In this document: piece after piece, positions 30,348 to 50,634 of the stretch
Numbering within the stretch: the stretch's first letter is position 1
How the letters are laid out: each line of letters begins with the position of its first letter
Origin: Candidatus Manganitrophus noduliformans
Lineage (GTDB): Bacteria; Nitrospirota; Nitrospiria; SBBL01; Manganitrophaceae
Assembly: GCF_012184425.1 (NCBI RefSeq)
Contig: NZ_VTOW01000002.1
Span: forward strand, 248,001 to 312,000
Length of the DNA: 64,000 nucleotides
Reading direction: 5' to 3'
Made by a program: the position numbers and the translations under genes
The notes under the pieces: generated by a model
The model's input: the letters and a program-made list of their open reading frames with translations, nothing else
What the model was told of the DNA's origin: nothing
Database searches by the model: none

Positions 30348-30417
30348 AGCTCCCCGCCGTAAGGGGCTAGAATGTGACTACCCCTTCGAATAAGCCCATC
30401 AGGAGCTTTTTTCTTTT
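30347..30417 (+). terminator. Nested hairpin terminator after the potassium transporter genes
   Basis: AAGCTCC (30347-30353) pairs with GGAGCTT (30402-30408), enclosing an AAGGGG/CCCCTT stem (30361-30386), and is followed by a T-rich run (30406-30417). It separates the plus-strand genes from the convergent MscS gene. Confidence 0.45.
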
Positions 30418-30421
30418 GCAT

Positions 30422-31309: not shown

Positions 31310-31321
31310 CTCACGCCTCCT

Positions 31322-34257: not shown

Positions 34258-34275
34258 AAATCGATCGATCCCTTC

Positions 34276-34398
34276 CTATTTTTTCTGCTTCTCTTTCTTG
34301 AAAGCGCTCTCAAGCCAGACGGTGATTCCAAAGAAGAACCCCATGAGAAGCAGAGTCCCGACCGTGATGAAAATCCCGATTCCCAATCGATCATCCAT
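34276..34398 (-). CDS. Small single-helix membrane protein of the b6c operon
   Basis: A 40-residue open frame with GGAGAAAAAACG directly before the ATG. It starts MDDRLGIGIFITVG, continues with one hydrophobic helix (about 6-30) and ends in a Lys-rich tail (FKKEKQKK). It lies between subunit IV (19 bases upstream) and the tetraheme cytochrome. Size, topology and position recall the tiny helical subunits of cytochrome b6f (PetG/L/M/N) or CcoQ, but no homology can be claimed. Confidence 0.65.
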   Translation of the reverse strand: MDDRLGIGIFITVGTLLLMGFFFGITVWLESAFKKEKQKK

Positions 34399-34417
34399 CG
34401 TTTTTTCTCCAAATCGC

Positions 34418-35278
34418 CTAAATTTTAAACCAGGGGGTCACCAGCACATATTTGATGCTGGCAAGCAGTCTTAAATAAATCTTCAGCGGCACGCCGAGCA
34501 TCGAAAGGAAAAGGAACATCATCAAATTGTACCGGACAAACCCCAACGAATTGTAAAACTTTCTCATGAAGAGAAAAGGAATGCTGAATCCGACCGCGTA
34601 ATATCCCAGGAACAACGCCCAGGTGATCAGGTTGGCGATCGTGACGCCGTACCGGCCGAGCGTGACGAGGGGGGCTTCGGGCAGTCCGAGCGTGTTCTGG
34701 ATCACGACCTCCAGATCGACGAGGCCCCCTGTGATCGGTTTGTGCGCCTTCCAATTGTCCCAGGGCCAATACCACGACCAATCCAGCCCCCGGAACCAGA
34801 CACCGATCACGATCAAGATGTACCAAAGCGCCAGCCCGAAACAAAATCCCAGTACGGCGAACTTTCTCTCGGAGTAGGTATAATAACCTTTCCCCCGCGG
34901 ATTCGGATCGATGTAGGGAAGAAGAACCAGTCCGACGATGATCAAGGAGGGGAGGACCACGCCGGCGAGCCAGGGATCGAAATAGACCAGAAGCTCCTGC
35001 AGGCCCAAGAAGTACCAGGGGGCCTTTGTCGGGTTCGGCGTGGTATCGGCGCTGGCCAACTCCTCCAGCGGCGCCGGCGAAACGAGGGAGAGAAAGAGAA
35101 GTACCGCGGTGGCGACCAACATCGAGATCAACTCGATGTAGACCAGATTCGGCCAGACCAGGACGTGATCTTCCGGCCCCATCTTGTCGGCCGCCGATTT
35201 CTTGATTAAAGCGGCGAGCCCGCCCGAATTCCCGTCCCGCTTCGGAATTGTCCCAAGCGCTGTTTCCTTTTCAGCCAT
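34418..35278 (-). CDS. Cytochrome b subunit IV-like protein (C-terminal half of cytochrome b)
   Basis: 286 residues, longer than plant or cyanobacterial subunit IV. About five helices (47-68, 105-122, 138-162, 212-240, 247-270). The quinol-site region reads TPNPTKAPWYFLGLQELL, with APWYF replacing the PEWY of other cytochromes b. A charged 30-residue N-terminal extension is unassigned. It works with the separate b6-type subunit encoded upstream. GAGGAA precedes the ATG. Confidence 0.88.
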   Translation of the reverse strand: MAEKETALGTIPKRDGNSGGLAALIKKSAADKMGPEDHVLVWPNLVYIELISMLVATAVLLFLSLVSPAPLEELASADTTPNPTKAPWYFLGLQELLVYFDPWLAGVVLPSLIIVGLVLLPYIDPNPRGKGYYTYSERKFAVLGFCFGLALWYILIVIGVWFRGLDWSWYWPWDNWKAHKPITGGLVDLEVVIQNTLGLPEAPLVTLGRYGVTIANLITWALFLGYYAVGFSIPFLFMRKFYNSLGFVRYNLMMFLFLSMLGVPLKIYLRLLASIKYVLVTPWFKI

Positions 35279-35305
35279 GTTTCTTCCTCAAACCAAACGA
35301 ATCGA

Positions 35306-36076
35306 TTAAAGCGGCCCGGAGAATCCGTCCTTCCGGATCCTCCAAAAATGAACGGCCATGAAGAGGGCCATCACCAACGGCAGTCCGAGGCAATGAAGGA
35401 CGTAGAACCGCAGCAGCGCGCTCTGCCCCACGACCGTTCCTCCCAACAAGACGAAGGCAACATCGTTGTTGATCGTCATCCCCAGCTCCGGACCGAACGG
35501 TCCCGCGTTCCCGACGAGCGGCGTCGCTTCCGCCATCTTGCTCCCGACCGTCACCGCCCAGAGAGCCAGCTGATCCCAGGGGAGAAGATAGCCGGTCCAG
35601 CTCATGACCAACGTCACCACCAGCAAGATCACCCCGACCACCCAGTTGAATTCGCGGGGAGGCTTATACGACCCGGTCAGGAAGACGCGGGTCATATGCA
35701 TCCAGACGGAGAAGACCATGGCATGCGCCGACCAGCGATGGAGCGCCCGGAAGAGGCTGCCGAAGTAAATGACCGTTCCCAAGTCTTTAATGTCGTTGTA
35801 TGCCCGCCGCGTATCGGGGACATAGTAGAACATCAGGAAAACGCCGGTAACGGCCAACAGAACGAAAAAGAAGAAGGTCAACCCTCCGAGACACCAGGTG
35901 AATTTGATCTTCAACGCGCCGCGACGGACGCGAACCGGATGGAGGTGGAGGATGACGTTGCTGAACATCACCAGCGCCCGGTTGGCGTCGGTGTTCGGGT
36001 AACCGTGACGGAAGATCGACTTCCAGACCTGCGTCTGCGTCACATTCTCCCGAATCTGATCGAGTAACTTATTCAT
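35306..36076 (-). CDS. Cytochrome b6-type subunit (N-terminal half of cytochrome b)
   Basis: 256 residues with four helices. Heme ligand pairs are His113/His127 (spacing 14) and His228/His243 (spacing 15); the 15 spacing is the b6 pattern, not the mitochondrial one. Cys62 in FTWCLGG aligns with the Cys of cytochrome b6 that binds the extra heme ci, so a third heme on the n-side is likely. It oxidises quinol together with the Rieske protein. AAGGAG precedes the ATG. Confidence 0.92.
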
Positions 36077-36101
36077 TCCGAATGGCTCTCCTTCCCTTCT
36101 T

Positions 36102-36126
36102 GTCCGACCTGTCCGACAGGTCGGAC
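36102..36126 (-). other. Intercistronic hairpin between Rieske and cytochrome b6 genes
   Basis: GTCCGACCTGT and ACAGGTCGGAC are perfect 11-bp arms around a 3-base loop. No T-run follows, so it is not a standard terminator. It could stabilise or process the polycistronic mRNA and set subunit ratios. Confidence 0.5.
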
Positions 36127-36130
36127 TCCG

Positions 36131-36709
36131 CTATACCTCTAAGAAAAACGGTGGAACTTCCCGGCTCTTTTCGTCGACCATCAACCCTTCCTCCGTTCCC
36201 TTCGGATCGGGATCCTGGCGCTGCGTAAAGTTGACGACGATCTGTCCGTCGACCGGATCGATTGAAAGGGCCGCCCGCCAGAGGGTCCGGGGGGCCGGAC
36301 CGCCGACGACATTCCCCGCCACGTCATAAATACTTCCATGGCAGGGACACCGGAACTTTTTTTGGTCGTCGAACCAGTTGGGGGTGCATCCGAGATGACG
36401 GCAAATCGCCACCATCACATAGATTCCCCGCTCGTTTCGGACCACCCAGATCTGGCGCTCTTTCTTCAGCTTGTTATCGACGCCGATTCCGTAATCATCC
36501 GGCTTTCCGATTTTGAAGACCGTGGGGGGCTCGTAAAGGACGTTTGGAAACATGTACCGAAGGGCGCCGACGCCGCTTCCTCCGAGCGCCGCGGCAAACC
36601 CGCCCCAGCCGATCCCCAGGCCCATGAGGGTAAAAAACCGCCTCCGGGTCACATCCGTCTGCTGCTGTTGCGGATTTTGCGGACTGTCTTTCTTGCCACC
36701 GGGATTCAT
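36131..36709 (-). CDS. Rieske iron-sulfur protein of the quinol oxidase complex
   Basis: 192 residues from the ATG at 36709, which has AGGAGG seven bases upstream; a GTG 18 bases earlier lies before that site. A Tat-like region (TRRRFFTLMGLG) precedes one membrane helix (about 30-50). The 2Fe-2S motifs are CRHLGC and CPCHGS, giving the two Cys and two His ligands. It moves electrons from quinol at the b6 subunit to the multiheme cytochrome. Confidence 0.94.
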   Translation of the reverse strand: MNPGGKKDSPQNPQQQQTDVTRRRFFTLMGLGIGWGGFAAALGGSGVGALRYMFPNVLYEPPTVFKIGKPDDYGIGVDNKLKKERQIWVVRNERGIYVMVAICRHLGCTPNWFDDQKKFRCPCHGSIYDVAGNVVGGPAPRTLWRAALSIDPVDGQIVVNFTQRQDPDPKGTEEGLMVDEKSREVPPFFLEV

Positions 36710-36777
36710 ATGGAACCTCCTCCGCACCGCTTTGAAGCGGTGATGTGTTTCTTCAATGTGAATCTAAACGGAAGATC

Positions 36778-37263
36778 TCACTTCTTTTTCCTGCTTTTGC
36801 GCGGGGCCTCTTTCTTCTTCTTTTTCCGAAAGAGACCGAAATAAAGAACCGCCGCCAGAAGACCGAACCCGCCGGTCCAATAAATCCAGGCAAACGGCGA
36901 CGATTTCCCGGGCGCGCCGAAGTCGGCGCTCCCCCCCCGGTGTGTCACCTTATCGCCCGCTTTGAACGCGACGGCGACCTTCTTGACCTCGGTTCCCGCC
37001 GTGACGGTGATCTCATCTCCGAGATCTTCGTCGTGGAGGTGAAAGAGGGTCTCGTAATAACCGGAGCCGTTCGTCTTAACCTTAAACTTCTGCCCGCTTT
37101 TATGCTCTAAGAGCACATCGACGCCCTTCAGGGCGTTTCCTTCCGCGTCCCGAACGTAACCGGAGACAATATATCGATGGTCGACTTCGTGCGTTGCAAA
37201 CGCAGGCTTGGGCGTAATCGTTACGAGGGAAAGGATGAAAATAAGGAAGATCGCCAATTGCAT
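36778..37263 (-). CDS. Secreted, C-terminally anchored protein with a carboxypeptidase-regulatory-like domain
   Basis: 161 residues from the ATG at 37263. A signal peptide (IFLIFILSLV to AFA) is followed by a beta-sandwich resembling carboxypeptidase regulatory domains (SGYVRDAEGNALKGVDVLLEH, NGSGYYETLFHL). A C-terminal helix (about 124-145, FAWIYWTGGFGLLAAVLYFG) leads to a very Lys-rich tail. An ATG at 37320 would give 180 residues, but it lies inside the -10 box of a strong promoter. The gene opens the Rieske-b6-IV operon; its role there is unknown. Confidence 0.65.
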   Translation of the reverse strand: MQLAIFLIFILSLVTITPKPAFATHEVDHRYIVSGYVRDAEGNALKGVDVLLEHKSGQKFKVKTNGSGYYETLFHLHDEDLGDEITVTAGTEVKKVAVAFKAGDKVTHRGGSADFGAPGKSSPFAWIYWTGGFGLLAAVLYFGLFRKKKKKEAPRKSRKKK

Positions 37264-37315
37264 TCCGTCAGGATAATTTCCCCGAAGAGACGCTTCGAGG
37301 GAGCCAAGTCGCCGT

Positions 37316-37344
37316 ATCATAAATCAGCGAACTAAATATGTCAA
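37316..37344 (-). promoter_or_regulatory. Near-perfect promoter of the b6c operon
   Basis: On the minus strand TTGACA (37344-37339), exactly 17 bases, then TATGAT (37321-37316), 11 of 12 consensus bases. Transcription would start near 37309. The gap from here to 37596 holds no gene that I can support. Confidence 0.7.
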
Positions 37345-37596
37345 TGATCCAGACGCGCTTTCTTCCCTTCTCATCCCAATGGGCCTCTTTCTTGACCTCC
37401 ATTGAAGACTCTGTAAAATTCCATTCCAGCGCTGCGCTTCCCGCCGCGGGTCAAAAGCGCGATGTAAATTTTTCTCCCGCCGCGATCGCCTCCCGAGTCC
37501 GGGGAGACTTTTTTAAGGACGGCTCTTCACTGTGAAAAGTCAGGACTCCTGAGCCGCCGCCGCGGCGGGGAGAAACCGTTTCATTTCTGTCCGCCG

Positions 37597-38412
37597 TCAG
37601 GAACGTCGCTGCAAGGGATCGGCCCCCGATCGATGCGGCTCCGCTTTTTGAACTTCTTCCGACGATCCTTTTAACGTGCTCAAATAAATGGTGACGGCCA
37701 AGGCCTCCTCATCCGACAGATCGAGGTTCGGCATCCGGGTATGCGGTTTGAACGACAGCGGATTCCGGACCCAACGGTAAATAAATTGAGGCTGTAACAT
37801 AAAACCGACCCGGCTTAAATCGGGACCGAGCTCCCCCCCTTCCCCGTCGATCTGATGACAGGCGACACATCCGCGATCGACAAAGACCTCTTTCCCCTGA
37901 TCGATCATTTCTTGACGCCCGTCGTCATCGGAAACCTTCTCCTCGAAAAGGGAAACAAACTCCGCCTCCTGTACCGGGGGGGTCCGAGGCCGGGCCGTTT
38001 GGTACGGCTTCTCTTTATCAAAGATCACGGGCGGGCCGTCATAAGAATGAAGGGTCCGGATAAAGGCGACGAGAGACCAGATCTCTTCTTCTGAAAAATG
38101 TTTTCCCCAGGTCGGCATCCCTGCGGAGAGGTCGACGCCGTAGCCCCCTTGTTCGATGACCTCGTAAATTTCTTCATTCGTCAGCTTTGCCATGTACTCT
38201 TCGGTCCCGTCGGTCAGGTCGCGCGCATGCGGGTCGAGATTTTTTGCATTATACCCGTCTCCCCGGCCGCTGTCTCCATGACAAGGGGTGCAATATCGGC
38301 TGAAAACCTTCCTCCCCTTGGCGACATGTTTATCTTCGAATAAGAATGAAAACGCAACCCCGCCGATAACGAGAATGATGGCCGGAATCAGCACAAATTG
38401 CAGCTTCTTCAT
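37597..38412 (-). CDS. Membrane-anchored diheme cytochrome c
   Basis: 271 residues. An uncleaved N-terminal helix (about 5-24) is followed by two cytochrome c domains with CxxCH at 41-45 and 182-186. Likely axial Met ligands lie in AGMPTWGKHFSEEEIWSL and TRMPNLDLSDEEALAV. A linker of about 50 residues joins the domains. It is the last gene of the upstream oxidase/cytochrome unit and probably an electron relay towards the bd-like oxidase. Confidence 0.85.
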   Translation of the reverse strand: MKKLQFVLIPAIILVIGGVAFSFLFEDKHVAKGRKVFSRYCTPCHGDSGRGDGYNAKNLDPHARDLTDGTEEYMAKLTNEEIYEVIEQGGYGVDLSAGMPTWGKHFSEEEIWSLVAFIRTLHSYDGPPVIFDKEKPYQTARPRTPPVQEAEFVSLFEEKVSDDDGRQEMIDQGKEVFVDRGCVACHQIDGEGGELGPDLSRVGFMLQPQFIYRWVRNPLSFKPHTRMPNLDLSDEEALAVTIYLSTLKGSSEEVQKAEPHRSGADPLQRRS

Positions 38413-38443
38413 TACCTAGATTCCTTTCCAACAGAGAGAAAGA

Positions 38444-40021
38444 TCATTTCTGCTTCCCATTTCCATTCCCATTCCGGTAACTTCGGGCGATCCACCACTC
38501 CACACCGACAACGACCAAGAGAAAGAGGGTCGGATAGATGAAGCGATCATTCGACGCGGGCACCTCAAGATAAAGGGAATACCAGGCCGATAAAGATCGC
38601 ATCGCGTCCCGCTCCCCGTTGGAGCCGTCCCAGGCGGTAAAAGCGATCGGGTAAAAAACGCCCGGCTGGATCTGCAAATCGGTTTCTTTATCTTCGGTGA
38701 CGAGGGGCCGCTTGAACACGGCCTTGTATTGCCCCTGGTGATACTTCCCTTTTCCCTTAAATTGCCAGTTGGTCTCCTCTTGCGGCGTGATCCGAAGCCC
38801 GACCCGAACCTCCGTCCCGTTCGCATTGAACTCGTCGACGCTGTTGGTTCTTCCGTTCCAGCGGGCGACATAGACCGAGTGGTTCACATCCCCCATGATG
38901 AAGTATGGTTTTTGGGTCCCCGGCAACATTTTGGTCGGAAACTGAATGGCGACGGCGTCATCGAAAATTTCGGGGACCGTCTCTCCGGCCGCCGGCGTCG
39001 CCACACTTTTCGTCGGGTCGTCCCAGATGACAAGAAGCGACAGATCCTTCTCGTTGTACATCGCCTTCACCGTGACCATATCGACGGTCGGGGTGAACAT
39101 CCTCGGATCGATCGTGACCTGGCCGACCAGCGGGAAACTATGCCGTTCCAGGTCGTTCCAGCGGGGATCGTCCGGATCGTCGGCAACATCCCCTTCGATC
39201 GGTTTCGCCATTACGGCGACGTTCCAATTGGGAACCCCCGGATACTGGGAAAGCGAATTGACGTAATTGGCGATATGCCAGCTCTTTTCATTGTCGAGTT
39301 TGTCTGCGAAAGAGGGCATCGGCGTTCCCATCAAGCCGGTGTTGATCCGCATATAGATATTCTCCCGTGCCCCCCCTCCACGGAAGATCCAGCCCTTGGT
39401 CAGATTTCGCGGCTGAACGTGACGCCCCAAATTGTCCTTCAGCGTGGGGGCAAGGGGTCCATTTCCCCGCCCCTCCTCGCCGTGGCACATGAAGCAAGCG
39501 AGCTCTTTGAAGAGCGCCTTCCCTTTCTCGATGCTCTCCGGCGAAGATTTGACTTCGGGGCCGATCGTGATCGGCTTGGGCGCCGCGTCCTTGAACTGCG
39601 GCGCGAAGGTTTTGATATACTGAACGACCGAGCGGATTTGATTATCTTTCAAAATGCTTTTCCAGGCCGGCATTCCCGTGCCGGGGAGCCCTTGGACGAC
39701 CACTTTGATGAGGTCTTCATCGGTCGGGACGCTCCCATGGGGGGTCGATTTATATTTGAATAGACCTTTCGTAAAGTCTCTCGGCACCGGCTTGAACCGC
39801 AATGCAGCCGGGCCGTCTCCGGCCCCTTCCGCGCCGTGGCAGCCGAGACACCGCTTGATATAGACTTCCTTTCCAAGCTCCACGCTGACGACACCTTTAC
39901 TTTTATCGTCCGACTTTTTCGCTTCAGGAGCGGCCTCCTCGTCGGCCCAGACGGGTGAAACAGCGGCCCCGAAAATCAACATCAGAGTCAGTCCGTATCG
40001 TCCGATCGCTCTTCTTAACAT
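38444..40021 (-). CDS. Diheme cytochrome c fused to an ethylbenzene-dehydrogenase-like heme-binding domain
   Basis: 525 residues from the ATG at 40021, chosen because GAGGAATCC lies just upstream; two earlier starts are less likely. A signal peptide (cut after VWA) leads to two cytochrome c domains with CxxCH at 58-62 and 176-180. Residues about 285-495 resemble the heme b gamma subunits of type II DMSO-reductase enzymes (ethylbenzene dehydrogenase, chlorate reductase, nitrite oxidoreductase). A C-terminal helix (about 500-516) anchors it. No molybdenum catalytic subunit is nearby, so it may act as an electron entry or relay subunit of the oxidase cluster. Confidence 0.8.
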   Translation of the reverse strand: MLRRAIGRYGLTLMLIFGAAVSPVWADEEAAPEAKKSDDKSKGVVSVELGKEVYIKRCLGCHGAEGAGDGPAALRFKPVPRDFTKGLFKYKSTPHGSVPTDEDLIKVVVQGLPGTGMPAWKSILKDNQIRSVVQYIKTFAPQFKDAAPKPITIGPEVKSSPESIEKGKALFKELACFMCHGEEGRGNGPLAPTLKDNLGRHVQPRNLTKGWIFRGGGARENIYMRINTGLMGTPMPSFADKLDNEKSWHIANYVNSLSQYPGVPNWNVAVMAKPIEGDVADDPDDPRWNDLERHSFPLVGQVTIDPRMFTPTVDMVTVKAMYNEKDLSLLVIWDDPTKSVATPAAGETVPEIFDDAVAIQFPTKMLPGTQKPYFIMGDVNHSVYVARWNGRTNSVDEFNANGTEVRVGLRITPQEETNWQFKGKGKYHQGQYKAVFKRPLVTEDKETDLQIQPGVFYPIAFTAWDGSNGERDAMRSLSAWYSLYLEVPASNDRFIYPTLFLLVVVGVEWWIARSYRNGNGNGKQK

Positions 40022-40043
40022 TGGATTCCTCATCAAGACCGAT

Positions 40044-40787
40044 CTACTCCCAACTTCTCGGCACAAATCCGGTATAATCAGAGAGGAAGAGAATCACCTT
40101 CCACCGCTCTTCATCGGTCAGCATGTCTTCCCATTTCGGCATCGCCGAACTCCAGGGGGTCGACTCCTGCGGAAGCCCGATCCCGCCGGTGCTGATTCTC
40201 CAGAAGAGAAACGACTCCTGAAGCATCGGAAGAACCCCGGGGTCCTGGAAATTGGCCGGCCTGGGGTTAAATCCATGCGCGAAAATCCCGTCGCCGTCGA
40301 GCAGATCGCCATGGCAGAAGATGCAATTTTTATAATAAATTTCTTTCCCGTCCGCGACGCTTTTCCGCAGCGTTTCTTTGTCTTCGACGTTGAAGGGATT
40401 ATACAAACCGGTAAATTCCACCGGAGGAGCCGGATGAATCACGCGCGGATCGAGCGGCGGCTGAATCTCTTTATTGAATTTCTGATACGAGCCGAACCAG
40501 ACGACCAGCGGCATGGCGACCAGAAGCGCATACCGCCCCCCCTTGGCCACCCCCCCTTCCACGCCCCCCCCCAAAAAGGTATAAATCGGGTTGACGATCA
40601 CCTCTTTGATATCGAAAAACAGGGTGAGATACATGATCGCCCCCGCCACGGCCATCGCCATATACATAAAAATGACGCTGAACGGGAGGGGAGGTTGAAC
40701 GATAAACCTCAAGAAGAGATAAAATAGAGCCAAAGAGAGGGCCACTCTGAGCCCGGGAGGCATCCCCTTCTTTTTTATTTTTTCCAT
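40044..40787 (-). CDS. Cytochrome c with three N-terminal membrane helices
   Basis: 247 residues. Helices at about 14-30, 36-58 and 86-100 precede a periplasmic monoheme domain with CIFCH at 155-159 and a probable Met ligand in SAMPKWEDMLTDEERW. A Gly-rich stretch (FLGGGVEGGVAKGG) lies between helices. It is likely an integral subunit of the oxidase complex encoded next to it. I do not recognise the membrane part. Confidence 0.8.
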   Translation of the reverse strand: MEKIKKKGMPPGLRVALSLALFYLFLRFIVQPPLPFSVIFMYMAMAVAGAIMYLTLFFDIKEVIVNPIYTFLGGGVEGGVAKGGRYALLVAMPLVVWFGSYQKFNKEIQPPLDPRVIHPAPPVEFTGLYNPFNVEDKETLRKSVADGKEIYYKNCIFCHGDLLDGDGIFAHGFNPRPANFQDPGVLPMLQESFLFWRISTGGIGLPQESTPWSSAMPKWEDMLTDEERWKVILFLSDYTGFVPRSWE

Positions 40788-40827
40788 CGCAGCGACCTCA
40801 CCTGCTGACCGAGTCAGCTTTCTTGTC

Positions 40828-41271
40828 CTATCTTTTCAGTTCCACCGGGCTGACCGTGATCTTTCCCCCCCGGCTCTGAACGAAGGCGATCACCGTCAAC
40901 AACTCGGGCTCCGTCAAACCGATCGGCGGCTGATCGACCGCCGGCATCCGCGCCGGATATTTTTTCGGCTCTGCGGGATCGAAATCGAGCCGGATATATT
41001 TATCCGGCTCCGTCAGCGTCTCGTAGATAAACTCCCGCGTGAGACGTTCCCCCGCCCCCTCTAAATCGGGACACTTCCCCCGGCCTTCTCCTCCAAGGGT
41101 GTGACAGAGGGCGCATTGGCCTTTTCCGAAAAAAATCTTCTCCCCGATCTCAACCAGGTCCCGTTCATTTGAAACAGCGCCGAACTCAAGTTTCTCGTCG
41201 GCCTTGGAGCCGCAACCCGCCGCCAACGCCAAGGCTAAAAAACAAAGACCGAATCCCCGCCTGATCTGCAA
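40828..41271 (-). CDS. Lipoprotein monoheme cytochrome c, free copy of the oxidase cytochrome domain
   Basis: 147 residues, starting at TTG. A lipobox (LALAAGC, Cys20) predicts a lipid anchor. Heme site CALCH at 53-57. From FFGKGQCALCHTLG to the end it is closely similar to the C-terminal cytochrome domain of the bd-like oxidase encoded 11 bases upstream. The shared blocks include RLTREFI, EPKKYPA, PPI and ELLTVIAFVQS, so the two arose by duplication. It may shuttle electrons to the fused domain or be an alternative donor. Confidence 0.85.
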   Translation of the reverse strand: MQIRRGFGLCFLALALAAGCGSKADEKLEFGAVSNERDLVEIGEKIFFGKGQCALCHTLGGEGRGKCPDLEGAGERLTREFIYETLTEPDKYIRLDFDPAEPKKYPARMPAVDQPPIGLTEPELLTVIAFVQSRGGKITVSPVELKR

Positions 41272-41282
41272 CTGAACTCTTC

Positions 41283-43685
41283 TTAGGATCCTGTGTGTCC
41301 TACTTCTCGCCGGCTTTCCAGCCTTTCCGGAGCGGGCGCCTCTCCTTCCGCCGGCTCGGCAACCGGAGCGGGCTGATCAAGGGCGATCAGCTCGGCCGGT
41401 TCGACCGTGACCTTTCCCCCGAGGCTTTGAACGAAAGCGATCACCGTCAGCAGCTCCTGATCGGTCAGATCGATCGGCGGCCGATTGATCACAGGCATCT
41501 GCGCCGGATACTTTTTCGGCTCCACCTGCTCGAAATCGAGCTTCACATAGGCGTCCGGCTTTGTCAGCGTCTCGAAGATAAACTCCCGCGTCAGACGGGC
41601 CCCGGCATTCTGGAGCGTCGGACAACGCCCTCCTTCCGACCCGAGCGTATGGCAGAGGGCGCATTGCCCTTTACCGAAAAACATGTTCTGGCCGATTCTC
41701 GTCAGATCTTTCTCGGTTGAAATTTTCGCCACATCCAGCTTCTCTTTTGTCGGGGGAAGACCGACGCTCTGTGGAACCATAAAGCCGGCCCAGGTAAACG
41801 CCGCCAGAAATCCGACGACGACCCCCACGACCTTCCGGAAATAAGGGGACCGCGCTTCACCGACCGGTTTCGGCGCGCTGAGCTTTTCAGGAAGGCTCAC
41901 CAGCCATTCGACAAAAGGAGCGACGAAGAAATATTGCGTGCAGAAACCGTCGTAGCGGATCGTCCGGGTGGTCACCCAGAAGATCGCGGCGACCAGAGAG
42001 AAGAAGAGAAGGGTGTTGACCGAAAAAAGAAAGGCGGCCGTCCCCAACGGAGGGGTATAGGCATAGGCGGAGGTGTCTTCCAGCACCCCATAGACATGCC
42101 AGTGGACCCGCGACGCGGAACGGGCATAACCCATCAGGCTCATCGTGAGGACCACGGTGATCGCGTTAATCACCAACGCATATTGGGAGCTCGGCCGCAT
42201 GATTCCCCAGGTCATTTTTCCGGTCATCTTCGCCCCCCGGAGCATCATGCCTGTCATCGGCGTCACCAGCGCGAGGACGAAGAGAACCGCCAACACCTGG
42301 GCGACGGAGAGAACGTTGACGCGGTAAATCGCCGGAACAAAGTAGCCGTAGATGCCGGCCAGGATCACGCCGATAATCGCGACCGAAAAGAGGAAAACCT
42401 CAAAGACGCGGGCCGCCTTTCCCCATTTGACGGTGATCTGCTGGTTCGCCCTCCAATAAAGAAGGAAGCTCATGAAGCTGGTCAGGATGATGATGTTGAC
42501 CACCGTCAACTTGGCCGACATGACCCCGAAGACCCCCAGGATCGGATGATGGGTTCCCCCCATCGCGCGCGCCTCTTCCATGCTGGCGACCAAGCTGTGC
42601 GGTGTCATCCAGACCCCCATACAAGCGAGAATGGTGACCAGCATGATGACGATATACGGCTTGTATTTCACCCCGTCTTCCGTCCGGGTGATGAGCCCCT
42701 GCCAGAGGTAGTAATTGGAGCCGAGAAAGAGCACCCCGATCAGAAGGGCCTGGAGGATAAAGAGCCAGGAGAGAATCCCCCCCATCAGGGTGATCCCCAT
42801 CTGCTGGTTATACTCATACACCTCCCGCATCAGCCAGTAGCCGGCAAAGGGCAACGGGAGAAGCCCGAAGATCCCGATGAAGTTTCCGACATACCCCATC
42901 CAGTCGTAATGCTCGCGCTCTTCCCTCGTTTTAGCGCCGAGATAGCGGACTCCCGCGTACGCCCCGCAGACATATCCTCCCAAAACGACATTCGCGACGA
43001 TTCGATGGATGTTCACCGGCCACCAGGTCGGGTTGTTCGCCGCGGCCCATGCCTTCTCGATCCACCCCATTCCCTCGTTCAAAACGACCGGACTCGCCTG
43101 GAAAGAGGCCCAAGCGCTCGGCACGATCATCACGAAAAAGCCGACGATGTTCAGAATCAGGCCGACGAACATGTGAAGGGGCTTGTACCTACCCTGCATC
43201 GCGTCCCACTTCGCCGCATAAATGTAGAGCGCCGCCCCTTCCAAGACAAAAAGGAAGAGATAGAAGTAAAAGCTGGGGAGAAAAACACCGGTGAGATAGG
43301 TCCAGAGTTTCGGATAAAGGACGCGAAGGGCAAAAAGGAAGATGATCCCCAAGGTGGCGGTCATCTCGAAACAGGCGGTGATCAGGATGGTGAACTCTTT
43401 GGCGAGGTGGTCGTACCGGCGATCCTTCGACACCATGCCGATGACCTCGCACAGCCAGGCGAAGATCGGCACCCCCAGGACGAATCCGCCGAAGAGGAGG
43501 TGCACCTGAGAGAGGATCCAGATGAAATTACGGCTGCTGATCCAGGAAGGATCGCGGTATTCAACCGCGCCTCCGGCCGCGGGAGTCTGGGCAAAGAGGA
43601 AGGAGGCCTCCAGGATCAAGAAGAGGGCCAGGAAAAGGAGCCACACCGCGAAAATCGGTTTTCGAATCACACTTTTGAAGGTCAT
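41283..43685 (-). CDS. Cytochrome bd-like oxidase subunit fused to a C-terminal cytochrome c
   Basis: 800 residues. About 14 membrane helices resemble CydA: His62 (SQVHLLFGGFVLG) and His227 (NIHRIVANVVLGG) are likely heme ligands, and the long quinol loop of true cytochrome bd is absent. After the last helix (about 620-640) comes a cytochrome c domain with CALCH at 675-679, then a Pro/Glu-rich tail. The fusion suggests a terminal oxidase fed by cytochrome c rather than quinol. Comparable bd-like proteins are known from Nitrospira and Ca. Manganitrophus. No CydB is present. AGGGGG precedes the ATG. Confidence 0.85.
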   Translation of the reverse strand: MTFKSVIRKPIFAVWLLFLALFLILEASFLFAQTPAAGGAVEYRDPSWISSRNFIWILSQVHLLFGGFVLGVPIFAWLCEVIGMVSKDRRYDHLAKEFTILITACFEMTATLGIIFLFALRVLYPKLWTYLTGVFLPSFYFYLFLFVLEGAALYIYAAKWDAMQGRYKPLHMFVGLILNIVGFFVMIVPSAWASFQASPVVLNEGMGWIEKAWAAANNPTWWPVNIHRIVANVVLGGYVCGAYAGVRYLGAKTREEREHYDWMGYVGNFIGIFGLLPLPFAGYWLMREVYEYNQQMGITLMGGILSWLFILQALLIGVLFLGSNYYLWQGLITRTEDGVKYKPYIVIMLVTILACMGVWMTPHSLVASMEEARAMGGTHHPILGVFGVMSAKLTVVNIIILTSFMSFLLYWRANQQITVKWGKAARVFEVFLFSVAIIGVILAGIYGYFVPAIYRVNVLSVAQVLAVLFVLALVTPMTGMMLRGAKMTGKMTWGIMRPSSQYALVINAITVVLTMSLMGYARSASRVHWHVYGVLEDTSAYAYTPPLGTAAFLFSVNTLLFFSLVAAIFWVTTRTIRYDGFCTQYFFVAPFVEWLVSLPEKLSAPKPVGEARSPYFRKVVGVVVGFLAAFTWAGFMVPQSVGLPPTKEKLDVAKISTEKDLTRIGQNMFFGKGQCALCHTLGSEGGRCPTLQNAGARLTREFIFETLTKPDAYVKLDFEQVEPKKYPAQMPVINRPPIDLTDQELLTVIAFVQSLGGKVTVEPAELIALDQPAPVAEPAEGEAPAPERLESRREVGHTGS

Positions 43686-43799
43686 GAGAAACCCCCTTTG
43701 GATCTCGACGAATCCGGAGACCCGTTATGCGGTTTATCAAATTTTCCGACCACCTGAATGGCGCGCCGTCTCTTCGTCGATAACCCGCAGATTTCCCGT

Positions 43800-44147
43800 T
43801 CAATCATAGTAGTCTTCCGGCTTCATCAGAAAGGCATGCCCCAAAAACTTGGAAACCACGATAATCAGCACCGTCGTGATCAAGCCGTAGACGGCGCTGA
43901 ATCCCGGGATCGAATCCCAAATAAATGTGGCATGATCTCCGTGGACGAAGATATCCACGACCGCCAGAAGAACCAACGCGGCGATTAATGGTGTTTTTAT
44001 TTTTTGAATCTGCTCAGGCTTCACCAAATTGGAGCCTCCAGCGTGAACGGATTGTTTTGTGACCTTCACGGCGACTCCATCGAGCCCCTTTGTGGAGGCG
44101 GCCTCTTTTTTCCGGGTAGCGCTTGTTTGATCCGTATGCGGATTCAT
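43800..44147 (-). CDS. Small two-helix membrane protein of the oxidase/antiporter unit
   Basis: 115 residues. A polar N-terminal 50 residues leads to two helices (about 52-68 and 80-105: TPLIAALVLLAVVDIFV and FSAVYGLITTVLIIVVSKFL). I do not recognise the family. It lies between the MrpD-like subunit and the bd-like oxidase and may be a structural link between the ion-translocating and redox parts. Confidence 0.65.
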   Translation of the reverse strand: MNPHTDQTSATRKKEAASTKGLDGVAVKVTKQSVHAGGSNLVKPEQIQKIKTPLIAALVLLAVVDIFVHGDHATFIWDSIPGFSAVYGLITTVLIIVVSKFLGHAFLMKPEDYYD

Positions 44148-44169
44148 CGAACAACCTGTCTAAGCCCCT

Positions 44170-45699
44170 TCATCGCTCGGGGCTTGAAAAAGACTTATTC
44201 AGTTTGGCCAGCCAGAGAAAAGCCGCCGCCCCTTTCCGATAAAACCAGTCGATATCGAGGCTGATCGTATTTTCCGAATGAAATTTATGCAAGAAAAAGA
44301 TAAATCCCAAAGCGGTCGCGCAGAGAATTTGCAACGACTCGACCAGGTGCGCGACCGTATAGGGGTGATACTCCGCCGGGAAGGGCAACAACCGGTAGAA
44401 CAGACCCGGCAGGACCCCCATGAGGACGCAGAGAAGAGCGGCCAAACCCATCGCGACCAGCATGTTTTTGGGAGGATCGGTCGCAGCGATCTTTTTGTCC
44501 TCGCCCAAGAAGACCGCATAGGGAAGCTTGAGGGTGGTCGAAAGAAACGTACCGGCCGAGGCGAGCGTGAGGAGCAGGAAGACCCATCCCTGGTGCGCTT
44601 CCGCGGCGGCCGACACCACCATCGATTTGCTGACGAATCCCGCCAGCAGCGGAAACCCGGAGATGGACAAACCGCCGATCATAAACAGCCGGAAGGTCCA
44701 AGGCATCGTTCGGTAGAGCCCCCCCAACTCGGATGCTTTCCGCTTTCCGGTCATGAAAAGGACCGAGCTCATCCCCATCAGCAGGAGCCCTTTATAGACG
44801 ATATTTGCGACGGCCAGCGCGACGGCCCCGTTGCGCGCCAGTTCACTCCCGATCCCGACCCCCACCACCATGTATCCGATCTGGCTCAACATGTGATACG
44901 ACAGCAATCTTCGGATATCATTCTCGAGCATCGCATAGACGACGCCGTAAACGGCCATGACCGCTCCGAGCACGATCAGGATTTCCGTTCCGGGAAAACC
45001 GCGCACCAAAGCATAGACGGCCGTCTTCGTTGTAAAAATGCTCAAGAAAATGATCCCCGTCACGGTCGCTTCCGGATAGGCATCGGCCAACCAGGCGTGC
45101 AGCGGCGGCACGGCCGCATTCAAAAGAAACCCGATGAGGATCAGCGTCGCGCCCAGACCGGCATGTGGAAGCGCATTAAAGGCGATTCCCCCGCCGCCGG
45201 CGGCGTGAATCACGATTCCACCGAGCAGGAAAAGCCCGCCGACGATGTGCATCAGAAGATAGCGGAAACCGGCGGCGCTCGACGGCTTGTCCCCTTTAAA
45301 CCAGATCAGAAAGACCGACGAGAAGGCCATGATCTCCCAGAAAAGGAAAAGGGTGAAGAGGTCCCCGGCAAAGGTCACCCCCAGAGCGCTTCCGCCGTAG
45401 AGCAATGCAGCAATGTGCTCCTTTTCATGCTTGAGGTGGAGGGCATAGGTCATTCCGACGAAAGTCATGAGGGTGAAGATATAGCCGAAGATCAAGCTGA
45501 GGCGGTCGACCCTTCCGAAGATGAGCTGCTGTCCCATAAAGGTCGTCGTGCCGTGATCCCCTTCCGGGGCGATCAGGAGGGAGAGGAAACCGAGTGCGGG
45601 AGCGGCGAGAATGATCCCTTGCTTCGCTTTTCCTTTTACAAAAAGGAGCAAAGCCGCAGCGATGAAAAAGAAGGCAGCGGGATGAATCCACCCGGTCAT
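44170..45699 (-). CDS. MrpD/NuoM-like ion-translocating membrane subunit
   Basis: 509 residues from the ATG at 45699 (GGAGGA upstream); an upstream ATG adds 18 residues before that site. About 14 helices of the proton-antiporter-like superfamily. Glu122 (LFWEIMAFS) matches the key helix-5 Glu, and Lys225 (FTTKTAVYA) lies in the helix-8 region. At the position of the usual helix-7 Lys there is Asn194 (GFLLNAAVPPLHAWL), as in a subgroup of MrpD-like proteins. It probably moves protons or sodium, driven by the neighbouring oxidase. Confidence 0.85.
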   Translation of the reverse strand: MTGWIHPAAFFFIAAALLLFVKGKAKQGIILAAPALGFLSLLIAPEGDHGTTTFMGQQLIFGRVDRLSLIFGYIFTLMTFVGMTYALHLKHEKEHIAALLYGGSALGVTFAGDLFTLFLFWEIMAFSSVFLIWFKGDKPSSAAGFRYLLMHIVGGLFLLGGIVIHAAGGGGIAFNALPHAGLGATLILIGFLLNAAVPPLHAWLADAYPEATVTGIIFLSIFTTKTAVYALVRGFPGTEILIVLGAVMAVYGVVYAMLENDIRRLLSYHMLSQIGYMVVGVGIGSELARNGAVALAVANIVYKGLLLMGMSSVLFMTGKRKASELGGLYRTMPWTFRLFMIGGLSISGFPLLAGFVSKSMVVSAAAEAHQGWVFLLLTLASAGTFLSTTLKLPYAVFLGEDKKIAATDPPKNMLVAMGLAALLCVLMGVLPGLFYRLLPFPAEYHPYTVAHLVESLQILCATALGFIFFLHKFHSENTISLDIDWFYRKGAAAFLWLAKLNKSFSSPER

Positions 45700-45808
45700 A
45701 ATCTTCCTCCAGAGTCGTTCTCTCGTTTCATCAGCCGGTTCTCTCCGACGCACGTAGAGACCGTCCTACGGCGCGCTTCACGATCCATTTCACTCGTCAC
45801 AGGCTGGT

Positions 45809-47356
45809 TCATCGAATAACCAGTTTGGCCAGATCGAGTATCAACTCGGGAAACATCCCCAAGAGCACGGAGAGGAGCGCGCATAAGAACAGGGGAACCA
45901 CGAGGAAATAAGAAGGCTCCTTGATCGGCCCCTCCGGACGGGAATGCCCTTCGTGGCCGCCTGCGGCCGCCGCCCCCAGACTCTGCGGAACGGGACGAAG
46001 CGCCAGCCCTTCCGGAGCTTCTTGCGGTCCTTCAAAAAAAGCTTTGTGGACGATCGGCAGAAAATAAAGCGCATTTAAAAAGGAGCTGAACAGTAAGACA
46101 AAAAGGAAGCCGAGCTCCTTTGCCTCCATGGTGCCGGTCATCAGATACCATTTCGTCAGAAATCCGGCCACCGGAGGGACACCGATCATACTGAGGGTCC
46201 CAAGCGCAAAAGCGCCCATGGTCCAGGGCATCTTCCGCCCGATGCCGGCCATCTCGGAAATATTCGTCTTGTGGGAAGCGACATAGATCGACCCGGCGCA
46301 GAAGAAGAGGGTGATCTTCGCAAAGGCATGGTTTGCAATGTGCATGATTCCGCCGGCCATCCCGCTGGGGGTCAAGAGGGCCGCGCCCAATACCATATAA
46401 GAGAGTTGACTGATCGTCGAGTAGGCGAGCCGCGCTTTGAGGTTATCCCGTGTCAGCGCCCAGACCGAAGCCGTGATAATCGTGAAAGAAGCAAGGAACC
46501 CGGTCATGACCCCCAGGTTCAACTCCTTCATCAAATCGACGCCGTAAACATGGAAGATGATCCGGAGGACACAAAACGCTCCCGCGTTCACGACCGCCAC
46601 CGCGTGAAGCAGCGCGCTGACCGGCGTGGGAGCGATCATGGCGGCCGGAAGCCAGGCGTGAAACGGCATGATCGCCACCTTGCCGAGGCCGGCGATGAAA
46701 AGGAAATAAGTGATAATTAGAACGGTTTGATTTGCCCCCGCGGGAAAAACGCCGCCCGGCCTGAAATCGAAGGTCTCAGTGATGTTGTAGGTCAAAAACA
46801 TCGCGGTCACGAAGAAGGCCTTCGTCGTCGCCAAGAGATAAAAGAGGTATTTATTCCCGGCGGCGTAAGCTTCTTTGGTTCCGCTGTGCGTGACCAAGGG
46901 ATAGGTAATGAAGGTGATGATTTCGTAGAAGAGAAAAAGGGTGATCATGTTGGCCGAAAAGGCCAGACCCAACGTCGCAAAAAGGGTGATCGCAAAACAG
47001 GTGTAGTAGCGGGTTTGGTTATGCTCCCTGAGGGAGCGCATGTAGCCGATGGAGTAAAGGGTGGTTACGATCCAGAGGAAGGAGGCGGTGATCGCAAAAA
47101 CAAGACCTAACGCGTCCACCCGAAACGCGATGGAGACTTCCGGCAGAAGGGTGATCAGATTGTAGTGAAGCGTATTTCCCGCGAGGACCGCGGGAATCAT
47201 GGAAGCGACGATCAGAAATTTCAGGATCGCCGTCACCAGGGAGCATCCCTCCCTTACATTCGGATTCCTGCGGGTTGCGACAATGAGCGCCGCGCCGATC
47301 AAAGAAACGGCGACGGCCAACAACGGTTTGATCGATTCAATTTCCATCGTAGTCAT
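45809..47356 (-). CDS. NuoM/MrpD-like ion-translocating membrane subunit
   Basis: 515 residues, about 14 helices. The expected charged residues are present: Glu145 (FYEIITFITYPLV), Lys226 (GLGKVAIMPFHAWLP), His251 in helix 8 and a Lys in FLTKWYL of helix 12. An insert rich in His and Gly (about 455-475) precedes the last helices. It is a full proton-pumping-type subunit outside the nuo operon at 58992, next to a second such subunit and the bd-like oxidase. TAGGAA precedes the ATG. Confidence 0.88.
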   Translation of the reverse strand: MTTMEIESIKPLLAVAVSLIGAALIVATRRNPNVREGCSLVTAILKFLIVASMIPAVLAGNTLHYNLITLLPEVSIAFRVDALGLVFAITASFLWIVTTLYSIGYMRSLREHNQTRYYTCFAITLFATLGLAFSANMITLFLFYEIITFITYPLVTHSGTKEAYAAGNKYLFYLLATTKAFFVTAMFLTYNITETFDFRPGGVFPAGANQTVLIITYFLFIAGLGKVAIMPFHAWLPAAMIAPTPVSALLHAVAVVNAGAFCVLRIIFHVYGVDLMKELNLGVMTGFLASFTIITASVWALTRDNLKARLAYSTISQLSYMVLGAALLTPSGMAGGIMHIANHAFAKITLFFCAGSIYVASHKTNISEMAGIGRKMPWTMGAFALGTLSMIGVPPVAGFLTKWYLMTGTMEAKELGFLFVLLFSSFLNALYFLPIVHKAFFEGPQEAPEGLALRPVPQSLGAAAAGGHEGHSRPEGPIKEPSYFLVVPLFLCALLSVLLGMFPELILDLAKLVIR

Positions 47357-47465
47357 CGGATTCCTAGCCTTAGGAAATGATAAGCGAGGTGATAAGCGAC
47401 CATGGGAAACGTTCCCTTCAAACCGCTAAAAGCGAAACCTCCCAGGGAAGCCAAAACGCTCCCCG

Positions 47466-47993
47466 CTATTTTTCAACGGAAATCTGAATCTCTGGATGTT
47501 CGTGCGCTTCCGCCTTTGAGCCGTGGGACATCGTATGCTCATAAGCGATGATCTTCCATCGCTCCTCTTCGCTCAGTTTATCTTTCCACGCCGGCATCTT
47601 GGTCTTGGGCACCCCTTCAGAAAGCCGCCAAAACCAATAGCTGTCGGAATACTGATTGATTTTCTTAGGAACCCGAAAATCCCGCGCCCCTCTCTGCTTG
47701 GGCCGGTCTTTCTTAGGATCAATGCCGTGGCATTCGGCGCAACCATCCTTTACATTTACCTTTTTCCCCTTGAATTCAAATTCCAAATGCGCCGTTTCGT
47801 AAAGTTTTTTCCCTTCCGCGATGATTTTGGGGTCGGTCCACCACCCTTTCGGCATATGTTTGTCCGCGTATTCCTTCGGAACCGGCTTTAACGGCTTGTC
47901 GTCCTCTTCATCCGCACGGACACCCGCTGGCACTAAAATAAAAGTAATGGCGATCAAACTCAAGAGAAAAAACCGAACCCCGTTCATCATCAT
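47466..47993 (-). CDS. Periplasmic monoheme cytochrome c
   Basis: 175 residues. A signal peptide (cut near VRA-DEE) precedes a cytochrome c with CAECH at 85-89 and a likely Met ligand in TKMPAWKDKLSEEERWKI. A long charged segment between residues 28 and 80 is unassigned. Three ATG codons in tandem make the exact start uncertain. It is the second gene of the cluster. Confidence 0.85.
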   Translation of the reverse strand: MMMNGVRFFLLSLIAITFILVPAGVRADEEDDKPLKPVPKEYADKHMPKGWWTDPKIIAEGKKLYETAHLEFEFKGKKVNVKDGCAECHGIDPKKDRPKQRGARDFRVPKKINQYSDSYWFWRLSEGVPKTKMPAWKDKLSEEERWKIIAYEHTMSHGSKAEAHEHPEIQISVEK

Positions 47994-48065
47994 CGTTTCC
48001 CCTTATTTAAGAGATCCGTAAAGATGCCGCTTGTCTTAATGAAAAATCAATTTTTCTCTGGAACT

Positions 48066-49232
48066 TTAGGAGCGCGGCGCCGCCGCCTGCTCTTTCCCCT
48101 TTTCTTGCCGCCTCTCCTGACTATTAAAACTATCCATGGTATGACAAGCAAGACAATTTTTATCTTTAATTAACTTTTCTCCCTTTTTAATCAACGCCGG
48201 ATCGGAGGGAGTTTCTCCGGAAACCTTGGCCGCCTGGGAAGCGCCCCCGCCGAGACTGTAAATGTAGGCGATCAGGGAGCGTATCTCCGAGTCGGGAATG
48301 CCGAAGTTCGGCATCGCCACATCGGGCCGTATCGCCTGGGGATTCTTCAACCAGAAGTAAACCCACTCCGGCTTGATACGTTCTGCCGTGCTCGAAAGAT
48401 CCGGACCGACGATGCCGCCGATTTCCGCCCCCTTGTGACAGGCGTCGCAGGCATATTTATCGATAAAAAACCTTCTTCCTTTTTCAATTTCCGCCGGGTC
48501 GGACAGGTTCAGCCCCGCCAAAGGAGCCGCGGACACTCCACCATCTTTTTGAGTCATCAAAAATGCGGTAAGCGCCGAAACCTCCTCATCGCTCAATTGG
48601 AAATCAGGCATCTTCGATTTGGTGAGCGGGATAAAACCGACCGGGCGAATTTTCTCCGGATCTTTCAGAAATTTCGAGAGCCACTCCGGATTCAGCTTGC
48701 TCCCCTCATGGCCCAGGTTGGGAGCGATCGGACGAATCTGGCCCTGTTTCATATGGCAGATCTGGCAATCGGAGCGGTCCCCCCGCCGCACATCCGAGAG
48801 CCGCACCCCCTTTTCAGGCTCGGGGGCATCTTCCGAAAATGTGCGGATGTATGCGACAAGGTCGCTGATCTGCTCGCCGGAAAGGGTCTTTCCCCAGGGG
48901 GGCATCGCAACGGAAAGTTCGACATATCCCCCGCCCAAATCGATGACCTCATAGATCTCTTCATCGGTCAAGCCCTGCACATCACCACTGGTCAGATCGG
49001 CGGGCGTCGGATCGAGACTCTCGGCATTCACCCCATTTCCTTTTGCGGTGACGCCATGACAGACCGCGCAGTAATGATTAAAAATACGTTTGCCTTCCGA
49101 AGGATTCGGTTTTGACGGAGTTGAAGCGGAAGGAGACTCCTTCTTGGGAGAAGCCCCCTGCACGGAGAGAGCGGCCGTGAAAAAAAGAAAAAAAAGGAGA
49201 CTCACTAAAATAAAATACCTTTTATTAAACAA
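48066..49232 (-). CDS. Periplasmic tetraheme cytochrome c with four tandem domains
   Basis: 388 residues from a TTG start with TAGGGG upstream. A signal peptide (cut near VQG-ASP) is followed by four class I-like segments with CxxCH at 55-59, 156-160, 262-266 and 360-364. Met-containing loops (VAMPPWGK, SKMPDFQLSDEE, VAMPNFGI) supply probable axial ligands for the first three hemes; the last domain is truncated to a heme hairpin. It is the first gene of the minus-strand oxidase cluster and a likely collector of electrons from donors outside the membrane. Confidence 0.87.
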   Translation of the reverse strand: MFNKRYFILVSLLFFLFFTAALSVQGASPKKESPSASTPSKPNPSEGKRIFNHYCAVCHGVTAKGNGVNAESLDPTPADLTSGDVQGLTDEEIYEVIDLGGGYVELSVAMPPWGKTLSGEQISDLVAYIRTFSEDAPEPEKGVRLSDVRRGDRSDCQICHMKQGQIRPIAPNLGHEGSKLNPEWLSKFLKDPEKIRPVGFIPLTKSKMPDFQLSDEEVSALTAFLMTQKDGGVSAAPLAGLNLSDPAEIEKGRRFFIDKYACDACHKGAEIGGIVGPDLSSTAERIKPEWVYFWLKNPQAIRPDVAMPNFGIPDSEIRSLIAYIYSLGGGASQAAKVSGETPSDPALIKKGEKLIKDKNCLACHTMDSFNSQERRQEKGKEQAAAPRS

Positions 49233-50296: not shown

Positions 50297-50611
50297 TTAG
50301 ACGAGATAGCCGAGGACATCCTCCTCTCGGACCAGAAGGACTTCTTCTTGATCGACCTGGACCTTCTTCGCCGCGTATTTCTCATACATGATATGATCGC
50401 CCGGCTTCAGCGTGGTTTTGACAAACTTCTTCTCTTTAATCTTTCCCTTCGCATCCTTTTCCTCGACAAATCGACCTTCCCCGGCGGCGACGACCTTTCC
50501 ACTCTCAGGCCGCTCTTTCGCCGCGTCGGGGACAAAAATCCCTCCGGCGGTTTTCTCTTCCGGCTCATCCGGCTGAACCACAACCCAGTCTTGCAAAGGC
50601 TTTACTCTCAT
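50297..50611 (-). CDS. groES: GroES-type co-chaperonin
   Basis: 104 residues from the ATG at 50611, which has GGAGGAG upstream. The protein contains the GroES start MRVKPLQDWVVVQPDEPEEKTAGGIFVPD with the mobile loop, and the ends PGDHIMYEKYAAKKV and LVREEDVLGYL. An extra charged insert (EEKDAKGKIKEKKF) is longer than in E. coli GroES. No groEL is adjacent, so this may be a secondary or separately located copy. It caps the chaperonin folding chamber. Confidence 0.87.
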   Translation of the reverse strand: MRVKPLQDWVVVQPDEPEEKTAGGIFVPDAAKERPESGKVVAAGEGRFVEEKDAKGKIKEKKFVKTTLKPGDHIMYEKYAAKKVQVDQEEVLLVREEDVLGYLV

Positions 50612-50634
50612 CTTCGTCTCCTCCATTTTCAAGC

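Follow-up and report, generated by a model that had tools for sequence, protein, structure and literature searches.

A CydA-like protein with a fused cytochrome c domain is repeatedly encoded with two complex I/Mrp-type antiporter subunits, within and beyond Candidatus Manganitrophaceae

To our knowledge, cytochrome bd enzymes are regarded as non-pumping. The closest described system to the locus considered here is TO_2 of Candidatus Manganitrophaceae, in which a bd-like oxidase is combined with two MrpD-like subunits and for which generation or dissipation of motive force has been proposed; in the excerpts of that paper available to us (the other papers cited here are likewise represented by excerpts), TO_2 is described as confined to the family and its expression is implied only (PMC9040806). 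The OR-N oxidases, which are related and occur in Nitrospira and Nitrospinota, are treated without antiporters in the excerpted text (PMC12342949, PMC10839748). We analyze a stretch of 64,000 nucleotides from Candidatus Manganitrophus noduliformans (contig NZ_VTOW01000002.1, positions 248,001 to 312,000; hereafter, “the window”), in which a CydA-like protein, two antiporter-like subunits and a two-helix linker protein are encoded side by side. The window has a bd-like oxidase and two MrpD-like subunits in one cluster, as does TO_2, and since PMC9040806 proposed coupling, neither the arrangement nor the coupling idea is new. A preliminary description of the window was right that related bd-like oxidases occur in Nitrospira and Ca. 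Manganitrophus, and missed that this same arrangement had been published as TO_2 (PMC9040806). Within the literature searched, what is new here is a wider distribution, two separate antiporter clades, a trimmed antiporter subunit, and a separate, full-tailed copy in complex I of the same genome; the search, which had Yu and Leadbetter 2020 and Murali 2021 outside its scope, found no report of the first three.

The core of the locus consists of four open reading frames (ORFs), all confirmed in the ORF list of the window and transcribed in the order antA, antB, LINK, CydA2:

45809-47356, minus strand: antA, antiporter-like subunit with the NuoL-type charged residues E145, K226, H251 and K402 (NF006236, residues)
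44170-45753, minus strand: antB, MrpD-like antiporter subunit without a C-terminal tail (NF009310, fold match, residues, tail analysis)
43800-44147, minus strand: LINK, two-helix linker of 115 amino acids (aa) between antB and CydA2 (homologues, conserved residues)
41283-43685, minus strand: CydA2, CydA-like protein of 800 aa with a C-terminal cytochrome c domain (CALCH at 675-679, M730; PF01654, PF00034, AlphaFold, residues)

The span first proposed, 41283-47356, is right for this core, which forms the centre of a larger co-directional cluster of 15 genes (33334-49232). The start of antB is likely an internal ATG near 45699, judging from sequence; the ORF of a relative has 509 aa.

The linkage of these genes recurs across genomes. 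With LINK as query, matches were found in 19 of 58 relatives, in three kinds of context: next to CydA2, within complex I gene sets (where it separates nuoK from nuoM/nuoN), and as part of Mrp operons. Relatives from the genome contig scan are the best 80 of 225. When 269 Nitrospiria genomes were sampled, the CydA2 profile matched 268 and LINK 29, with LINK beside CydA2 in 13 (G000, G003, G004, G005, G009, G012, G014, G015, G017, G031, G036, G483 and G566; a count made without the candidate G013:C15 of G013). Two more of the 269 (G011, G016) carry CydA2 with antA and a different antiporter of 598-600 aa, without LINK. As the same arrangement recurs in this way, we reject a chance neighbourhood. 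The pairing is also present in the vent Nitrospirota metagenome-assembled genome (MAG) HyVt-426 (L077) and in the Gammaproteobacteria MAG FO_Gamma_078.1 (L078), the latter being gammaproteobacterial by its bin only (its GC content is 55%, while two further stretches from that bin have 61% and 57%). These two MAGs, together with G031, G036, G483 and G566, are six genomes outside the two family codes that we take to be Manganitrophaceae (loci L060 and L061 of f10, L235 and L236 of f6, L077 and L078), which argues against the family restriction as stated in the excerpts of PMC9040806. Among Gammaproteobacteria, 47 of 274 genomes carry LINK; of the 51 places listed for it, 40 regions were examined, and these comprise 35 Mrp, 1 complex I and 4 unclear contexts, with none beside CydA2 (L078 is a separate contig, outside those 40). 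Two Troglogloeales contigs (L071, L075) have a fused CydA2 and no antiporter. Separately, L078 encodes at 15655-17931 a fusion of a membrane cytochrome c with a haem b protein (758 aa, three haem c sites), and L077 encodes a similar protein of 755 aa.

The order of the genes is variable: antA-antB-LINK-CydA2 in the window and L035, antA-LINK-antB-LINK-CydA2 in L036, antA-LINK-antB-CydA2 in L042 and others as well as L236, and CydA2-antA-LINK-antB in L060, L061, L077, L078 and L235. The linkage thus survives rearrangement, and the occurrence of LINK at two different joints (both of them in L036) suits a connector role. With ORF starts assigned mechanically, the stop of one gene overlaps the start of the next at the CydA2/antA junction in L060, L061, L077, L078 and L235, and at the antB/CydA2 junction in L047, L072 and L236. 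As side observations, L072 (OFTM244, 6834-12250) is a second antA-antB-CydA2 copy, tightly spaced, with neither LINK nor adjoining cytochromes, and in L073, L105, L106, L253 and L254 a different antiporter of 598-630 aa, whose top NCBIfam match is hydrogenase-4 subunit B (under the cut-off), replaces LINK and antB between antA and CydA2.

Of the signs that point to a distinct assembly, we consider the parallel trimming of antB, seen on comparison of sequences, to be the strongest. Past the shared core, antB extends by 0-29 aa in 14/14 oxidase-linked copies, from both of the antiporter clades described below, as against 81-120 aa in 9/9 uncut complex I copies and 51-265 aa in 14/14 Mrp copies. 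Every long tail holds a final hydrophobic stretch, so that the linked antB is without both the tail and the last helix. In a larger set (13 linked, 11 complex I, 36 Mrp and 7 unclear), the sole unlinked short tails, L202 and L208, are cut by the contig end, as is L240. The complex I of the window's own genome has its own antA-LINK-antB, with an antB tail of 120 aa (L033). In Mrp and complex I, a helix termed HL braces neighbouring antiporters (PMC7419157, in excerpt), and such a brace would be of little use where there are only two antiporters and a different partner. Two further observations concern these modules: the L077 antB ends with a short hydrophobic stretch that is unexplained, and complex I with antA-LINK-antB (or antA) occurs in other Nitrospiria families and one Gammaproteobacteria genome (L240-L244, L191), so that such forms of complex I may be wider than described.

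To place the linked antiporters, we built a careful, unrooted tree of joined antA and antB (38 rows, 1032 columns), with the oxidase-linked group set by gene context ahead of tree building. The linked copies fall into two clades. The first comprises the window, L036 and the f5 loci (8 rows, support 100/99) and lies within a 100/98 group of same-order complex I and Mrp copies; the second comprises L060, L061, L077, L078, L235 and L236 (6 rows, 100/100) and is placed elsewhere. A single clade of linked antiporters is rejected, with a log-likelihood 144.98 lower (approximately unbiased test, p = 3.4e-12) and none (0%) of 200 bootstrap trees; the same constraint on an earlier set gave a log-likelihood 125.25 lower (p = 1.2e-10). 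The oxidase tree is less decided: the linked oxidases form one group with 98 in the Shimodaira-Hasegawa-like approximate likelihood ratio test in a quick 80-row tree, and in 40% and 56% of bootstraps in the careful trees, so the oxidases may have one origin or two. Taken together, the two results suggest that the antiporters were either taken up twice or exchanged; being unrooted, the trees give no polarity to the exchange with complex I. Gammaproteobacteria Mrp was considered as a source of the second clade and set aside: a quick tree of antB only groups them, but the antA-only and joined trees do not, and in view of this disagreement we claim no source. The trees leave out contexts marked as doubtful (4 antA, 7 antB), and Mrp rows were thinned (to every second in the earlier trees and every third in the antA-only, antB-only and joined trees), a few being retained deliberately. 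The joined tree was built without L034 (whose ORFs are frame-broken), L035, L040 and L043, and the careful oxidase trees without L060, which is identical to L076.

The assignments of the individual proteins are as follows. antA scores 709.8 bits against NCBIfam NF006236 (cut-off 663) and antB 687.1 bits against NF009310 (cut-off 564), in keeping with the preliminary description, which had read them as NuoM/MrpD-like antiporters next to a two-helix linker. The antB model (mean predicted local distance difference test score, pLDDT, 69.6) aligns with MrpD (6z16_D) over 437 residues at Z 40.1 and a root-mean-square deviation (rmsd) of 2.7. In antA, E145 (the Glu of transmembrane helix (TM) 5), K226 (Lys of TM7) and K402 (Lys of TM12) are present in 17/17 oxidase-linked copies, and H251, the NuoL/MrpA-type residue of TM8, in 16/17; antB keeps E140, K243 and K376 in 13/13. 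LINK has two hydrophobic helices and matches no family in Pfam or NCBIfam; when PDB chains were searched by profile for a solved relative, there were 0 matches up to E 10. Its conserved residues, counted over 59 sequences, are Y114 (59), H72 (53), K100 (52) and D65 (48, plus 5 with Glu).

CydA2 matches the Pfam families Cyt_bd_oxida_I (E 3.1e-15, residues 59-294) and Cytochrom_C (E 2.1e-7, residues 670-755). Its AlphaFold model (mean pLDDT 75.4) aligns with the CydA of a bd oxidase (9r2g_A) over 343 residues at Z 33.0 and rmsd 3.3, subunits of alternative complex III score lower (Z 20-23), and profile-profile comparison with CydA gives a probability of 96.1%; as modelled, CydA2 has the CydA fold of the cytochrome bd superfamily. 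H62, E149, H227 and R526 correspond to H19, E107, H186 and R448 of E. coli CydA (E149 is not kept in the CydA2 of L060, L061, L077 and L078). The quinol residues K252 and E257 and the Q-loop have no counterpart, which bears out the earlier description of a CydA-like protein that lacks the quinol loop and carries a cytochrome c domain.

On these grounds, we give an even chance to the reading that CydA2, the two complex I/Mrp-type antiporters and LINK form one cytochrome-c-fed membrane complex that translocates ions. CydA2 would take up electrons on the periplasmic side by way of its cytochrome c domain, supplied by Mn(II) or by the bc/b6f complex encoded in the same cluster, and would pass them to its haem core and then most likely to O2. 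Charge changes at the haem core may be relayed through antB and then antA along their buried axis of charged residues, with LINK as the joint protein, so that about two ions would move outward per two electrons, in addition to what the oxidase separates on its own. Without antiporters, a bd enzyme fed by cytochrome c would separate one charge per electron; if each of the two antiporters moved one ion per two electrons, the total would rise to two per electron, as in a haem-copper oxidase. Since the enzyme alone would yield so little and the potential span on which these organisms live is small, we favour a forward pump. With potentials of +466 mV for Mn(II) and +818 mV for O2 (PMC9040806, in excerpt), the 352 mV available per electron would just cover two charges per electron at an assumed motive force of 175 mV, which speaks for plausibility. 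Gene content, conserved linkage, the loss of the antB tail and the translocation residues of antA are observed, and this comparative evidence for coupling is fairly strong and new within the literature searched; the mechanism is unproven, and it is by inference that we speak of physical assembly, O2 reduction, and pumping and its direction. Somewhat short of even, in our judgement, is the broader proposal of a new class of respiratory pump, in which a bd-superfamily cytochrome c oxidase drives antiporter arms, assembled at least twice (or by module exchange), with the lateral-helix tail of antB removed each time, there being no row of pumps left to brace.

Several observations weigh against such a complex. 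E. coli CydA E99, M393 and E445 have no counterpart in CydA2, whereas all nine residues checked (H19, E99, E107, H186, K252, E257, M393, E445, R448) are kept in 29/29 canonical CydAs. H186 and M393 ligate haem b558, E445 b595 and E99 haem d (PMC6853902, in excerpt), so the canonical ligand set is incomplete, with H186 (and H19) present and the rest absent, and the normal triheme O2 site would not be encoded in CydA2. The losses of M393 and E445 are less certain than that of E99, as their region aligns weakly; MAFFT and profile alignments disagree on the placement, and the ligands are absent in both. Nitrospira relatives show the same losses, and the label “oxidase” for CydA2 thus appears to rest on kinship, not on a conserved site. 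In antB, the TM7 lysine is replaced by Asn (N212) in 13/13 linked copies, as it is in 11/11 complex I and 13/36 Mrp copies; by their residues, antA looks translocation-competent and antB altered, though no more than complex I copies. Pfam and NCBIfam scans of the 15 cluster proteins found no NuoH/J/K or hydrophilic-arm genes of complex I and no MrpB, C, E, F or G, and so nothing like the coupling part formed by NuoH/J/K or MrpC; among the same 15 proteins, Pfam found neither CydB nor a second CydA. Finally, LINK is absent in L072, L073, L105 and L106 and is therefore not indispensable. The earlier suggestion of an oxidase with an ion-translocating module stands in part: the genomes suggest that the antiporters are partners of the bd-like protein rather than of complex I, whereas CydA2 may or may not be a competent cytochrome c oxidase, and electron flow may either pump ions outward or be driven by their inflow.

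The remaining genes of the cluster lie on both sides of the core. Two cytochromes c precede the core, and downstream of CydA2 lie cytochromes c, a haem b protein, a small periplasmic-domain protein and a bc/b6f set (Rieske protein, cytochrome b6, subunit IV and multihaem cytochrome c), co-directional with the CydA2-antiporter genes:

48066-49232, minus strand: four-haem cytochrome c, first gene of the cluster (PF13442/PF00034; orthologues with four CXXCH)
47466-47993, minus strand: monohaem cytochrome c upstream of antA (PF00034; position kept in relatives)
40828-41271, minus strand: cytochrome c of 147 aa with a lipoprotein-like start, paralogue of the CydA2 cytochrome c domain (PF00034)
40044-40787, minus strand: membrane-anchored monohaem cytochrome c (PF13442/PF00034)
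38444-40066, minus strand: dihaem cytochrome c with an ethylbenzene-dehydrogenase-gamma-type haem b domain (PF00034, PF09459; 103.6 bits to TIGR03477, under the cut-off of 169.85)
37597-38412, minus strand: dihaem cytochrome c (PF00034 in two stretches)
36778-37320, minus strand: small carboxypeptidase-regulatory-like domain protein (PF13620, 25.8 bits, under the cut-off of 32.3)
36131-36727, minus strand: Rieske iron-sulfur protein (PF00355)
35306-36076, minus strand: cytochrome b6-type subunit (PF00033, 138.4 bits)
34418-35278, minus strand: subunit-IV-like protein, cytochrome b C-terminal (PF00032, 22.1 bits, cut-off 20.7)
33334-34257, minus strand: multihaem cytochrome c ending the bc/b6f set (PF00034, PF14522)

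CydA2 and the 147-aa cytochrome c match each other's orthologues at about 176 bits. Beside the cluster (27717-33100) lie genes for TrkH, a TrkA-like protein, an MscS/MscK-like channel and a DASS-family transporter, and just past its other end (50297-50632) is an ORF that, judged by eye, resembles the GroES co-chaperonin. No Rfam feature reached the gathering threshold at 30000-56000 of the window.

The co-encoded bc/b6f set makes reverse use of the same complex for quinone reduction a serious rival, although we consider it unlikely. Here, ions entering through the antiporters would drive electrons from cytochrome c uphill to quinone, perhaps with part going to O2 (bifurcation), an idea stated by the authors of PMC9040806 in the excerpted text. 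The high-potential donors of these organisms are in its favour, as are the missing O2-site ligands, which weaken a pure oxidase role. However, CydA2 has no quinol residues (K252, E257), so that quinone would have to be met at cytochrome b, and linked oxidases also occur in the vent MAG and the Gammaproteobacteria MAG, whose donor is unknown. It is rather improbable that there is no physical coupling and that the antiporters act alone as a merely co-transcribed Na+/H+ or K+/H+ exchanger: both match models named “monovalent cation/H+ antiporter subunit D”, and 35/40 Gammaproteobacteria LINK contexts are Mrp operons, but the cluster has none of MrpB, C, E, F and G, antB is without the tail that Mrp copies keep, and two antiporter clades pair with the same oxidase family. 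We think it improbable, too, that CydA2 is a haem relay or the non-catalytic half of a CydAA' pair, with a second CydA elsewhere reducing O2. The unconserved E99, M393 and E445 would fit, and a second CydA is encoded beside CydA2 in clusters of the L060/L235 type; of the seven PF01654 places in the window's genome (5.17 Mb), L063b and L064b retain one Glu close to E99 and another at E107 and are, by sequence, candidates for a true O2 site. On the other hand, the window's cluster has no second CydA, and Nitrospira enzymes with the same losses are regarded as likely terminal oxidases in the excerpts of PMC12342949 and PMC10839748. In the window's genome, the L063 CydA-like gene adjoins Rieske/cytochrome b and that of L064 adjoins antiporter genes. 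We regard as very improbable a chance placement of antiporters that in fact serve complex I, whether as spares or as alternative distal subunits: the nearest antiporter clade does include same-order complex I copies, but the genome's complex I has its own (L033), and this copy, the recurrent pairing, the overlaps, the two clades and the tail loss of antB together disfavour an association with complex I only.

If the proposed CydA2-antiporter complex pumps, it would be a further design of O2-linked pump besides the haem-copper oxidases and would help explain how energy is conserved on high-potential donors such as Mn(II) and nitrite, where the energy span is small. It would also mean that the antiporter arm of complex I and Mrp can plug into an oxidase, so that its coupling step, long under debate, could be tested on a different redox partner.

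Among known systems, canonical quinol-oxidising cytochrome bd is set apart from the window by K252, E257, the Q-loop and an adjoining CydB. Mrp antiporters (PMC7419157, in excerpt) share the MrpA/MrpD-type subunits, with antA-LINK-antB found in Mrp operons, but have MrpB, C, E, F and G genes and an antB tail. Complex_I_3, or green complex I, shares the antA-LINK-antB module (L033 and others; PMC9040806, in excerpt) but has the 81-120 aa tail and NuoF/G/H/J/K neighbours. DAB2 (DabA2B2) likewise places a complex-I-type proton subunit on an enzyme other than complex I, but its DabA is carbonic-anhydrase-like with no haem, and motive force drives catalysis (PMC13144422, in excerpt). The OR-N or NIDE0901-like oxidase of Nitrospira (TO_1; PMC12342949 and PMC10839748, in excerpt) is homologous in its CydA core (the N. 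defluvii protein scores 757 bits), has cytochrome c and haem b partners and shows the same residue losses; in N. defluvii and N. moscoviensis, however, there are no adjoining antiporters and no LINK anywhere, and the N. defluvii cytochrome c is a separate protein, unlike the CydA2 fusion. Closest is TO_2, with its bd-like oxidase, two MrpD-like subunits, and periplasmic and membrane cytochrome b (PMC9040806, in excerpt), to which the present analysis adds relatives in other Nitrospiria families, in HyVt-426 and in a Gammaproteobacteria MAG, and a second antiporter clade.

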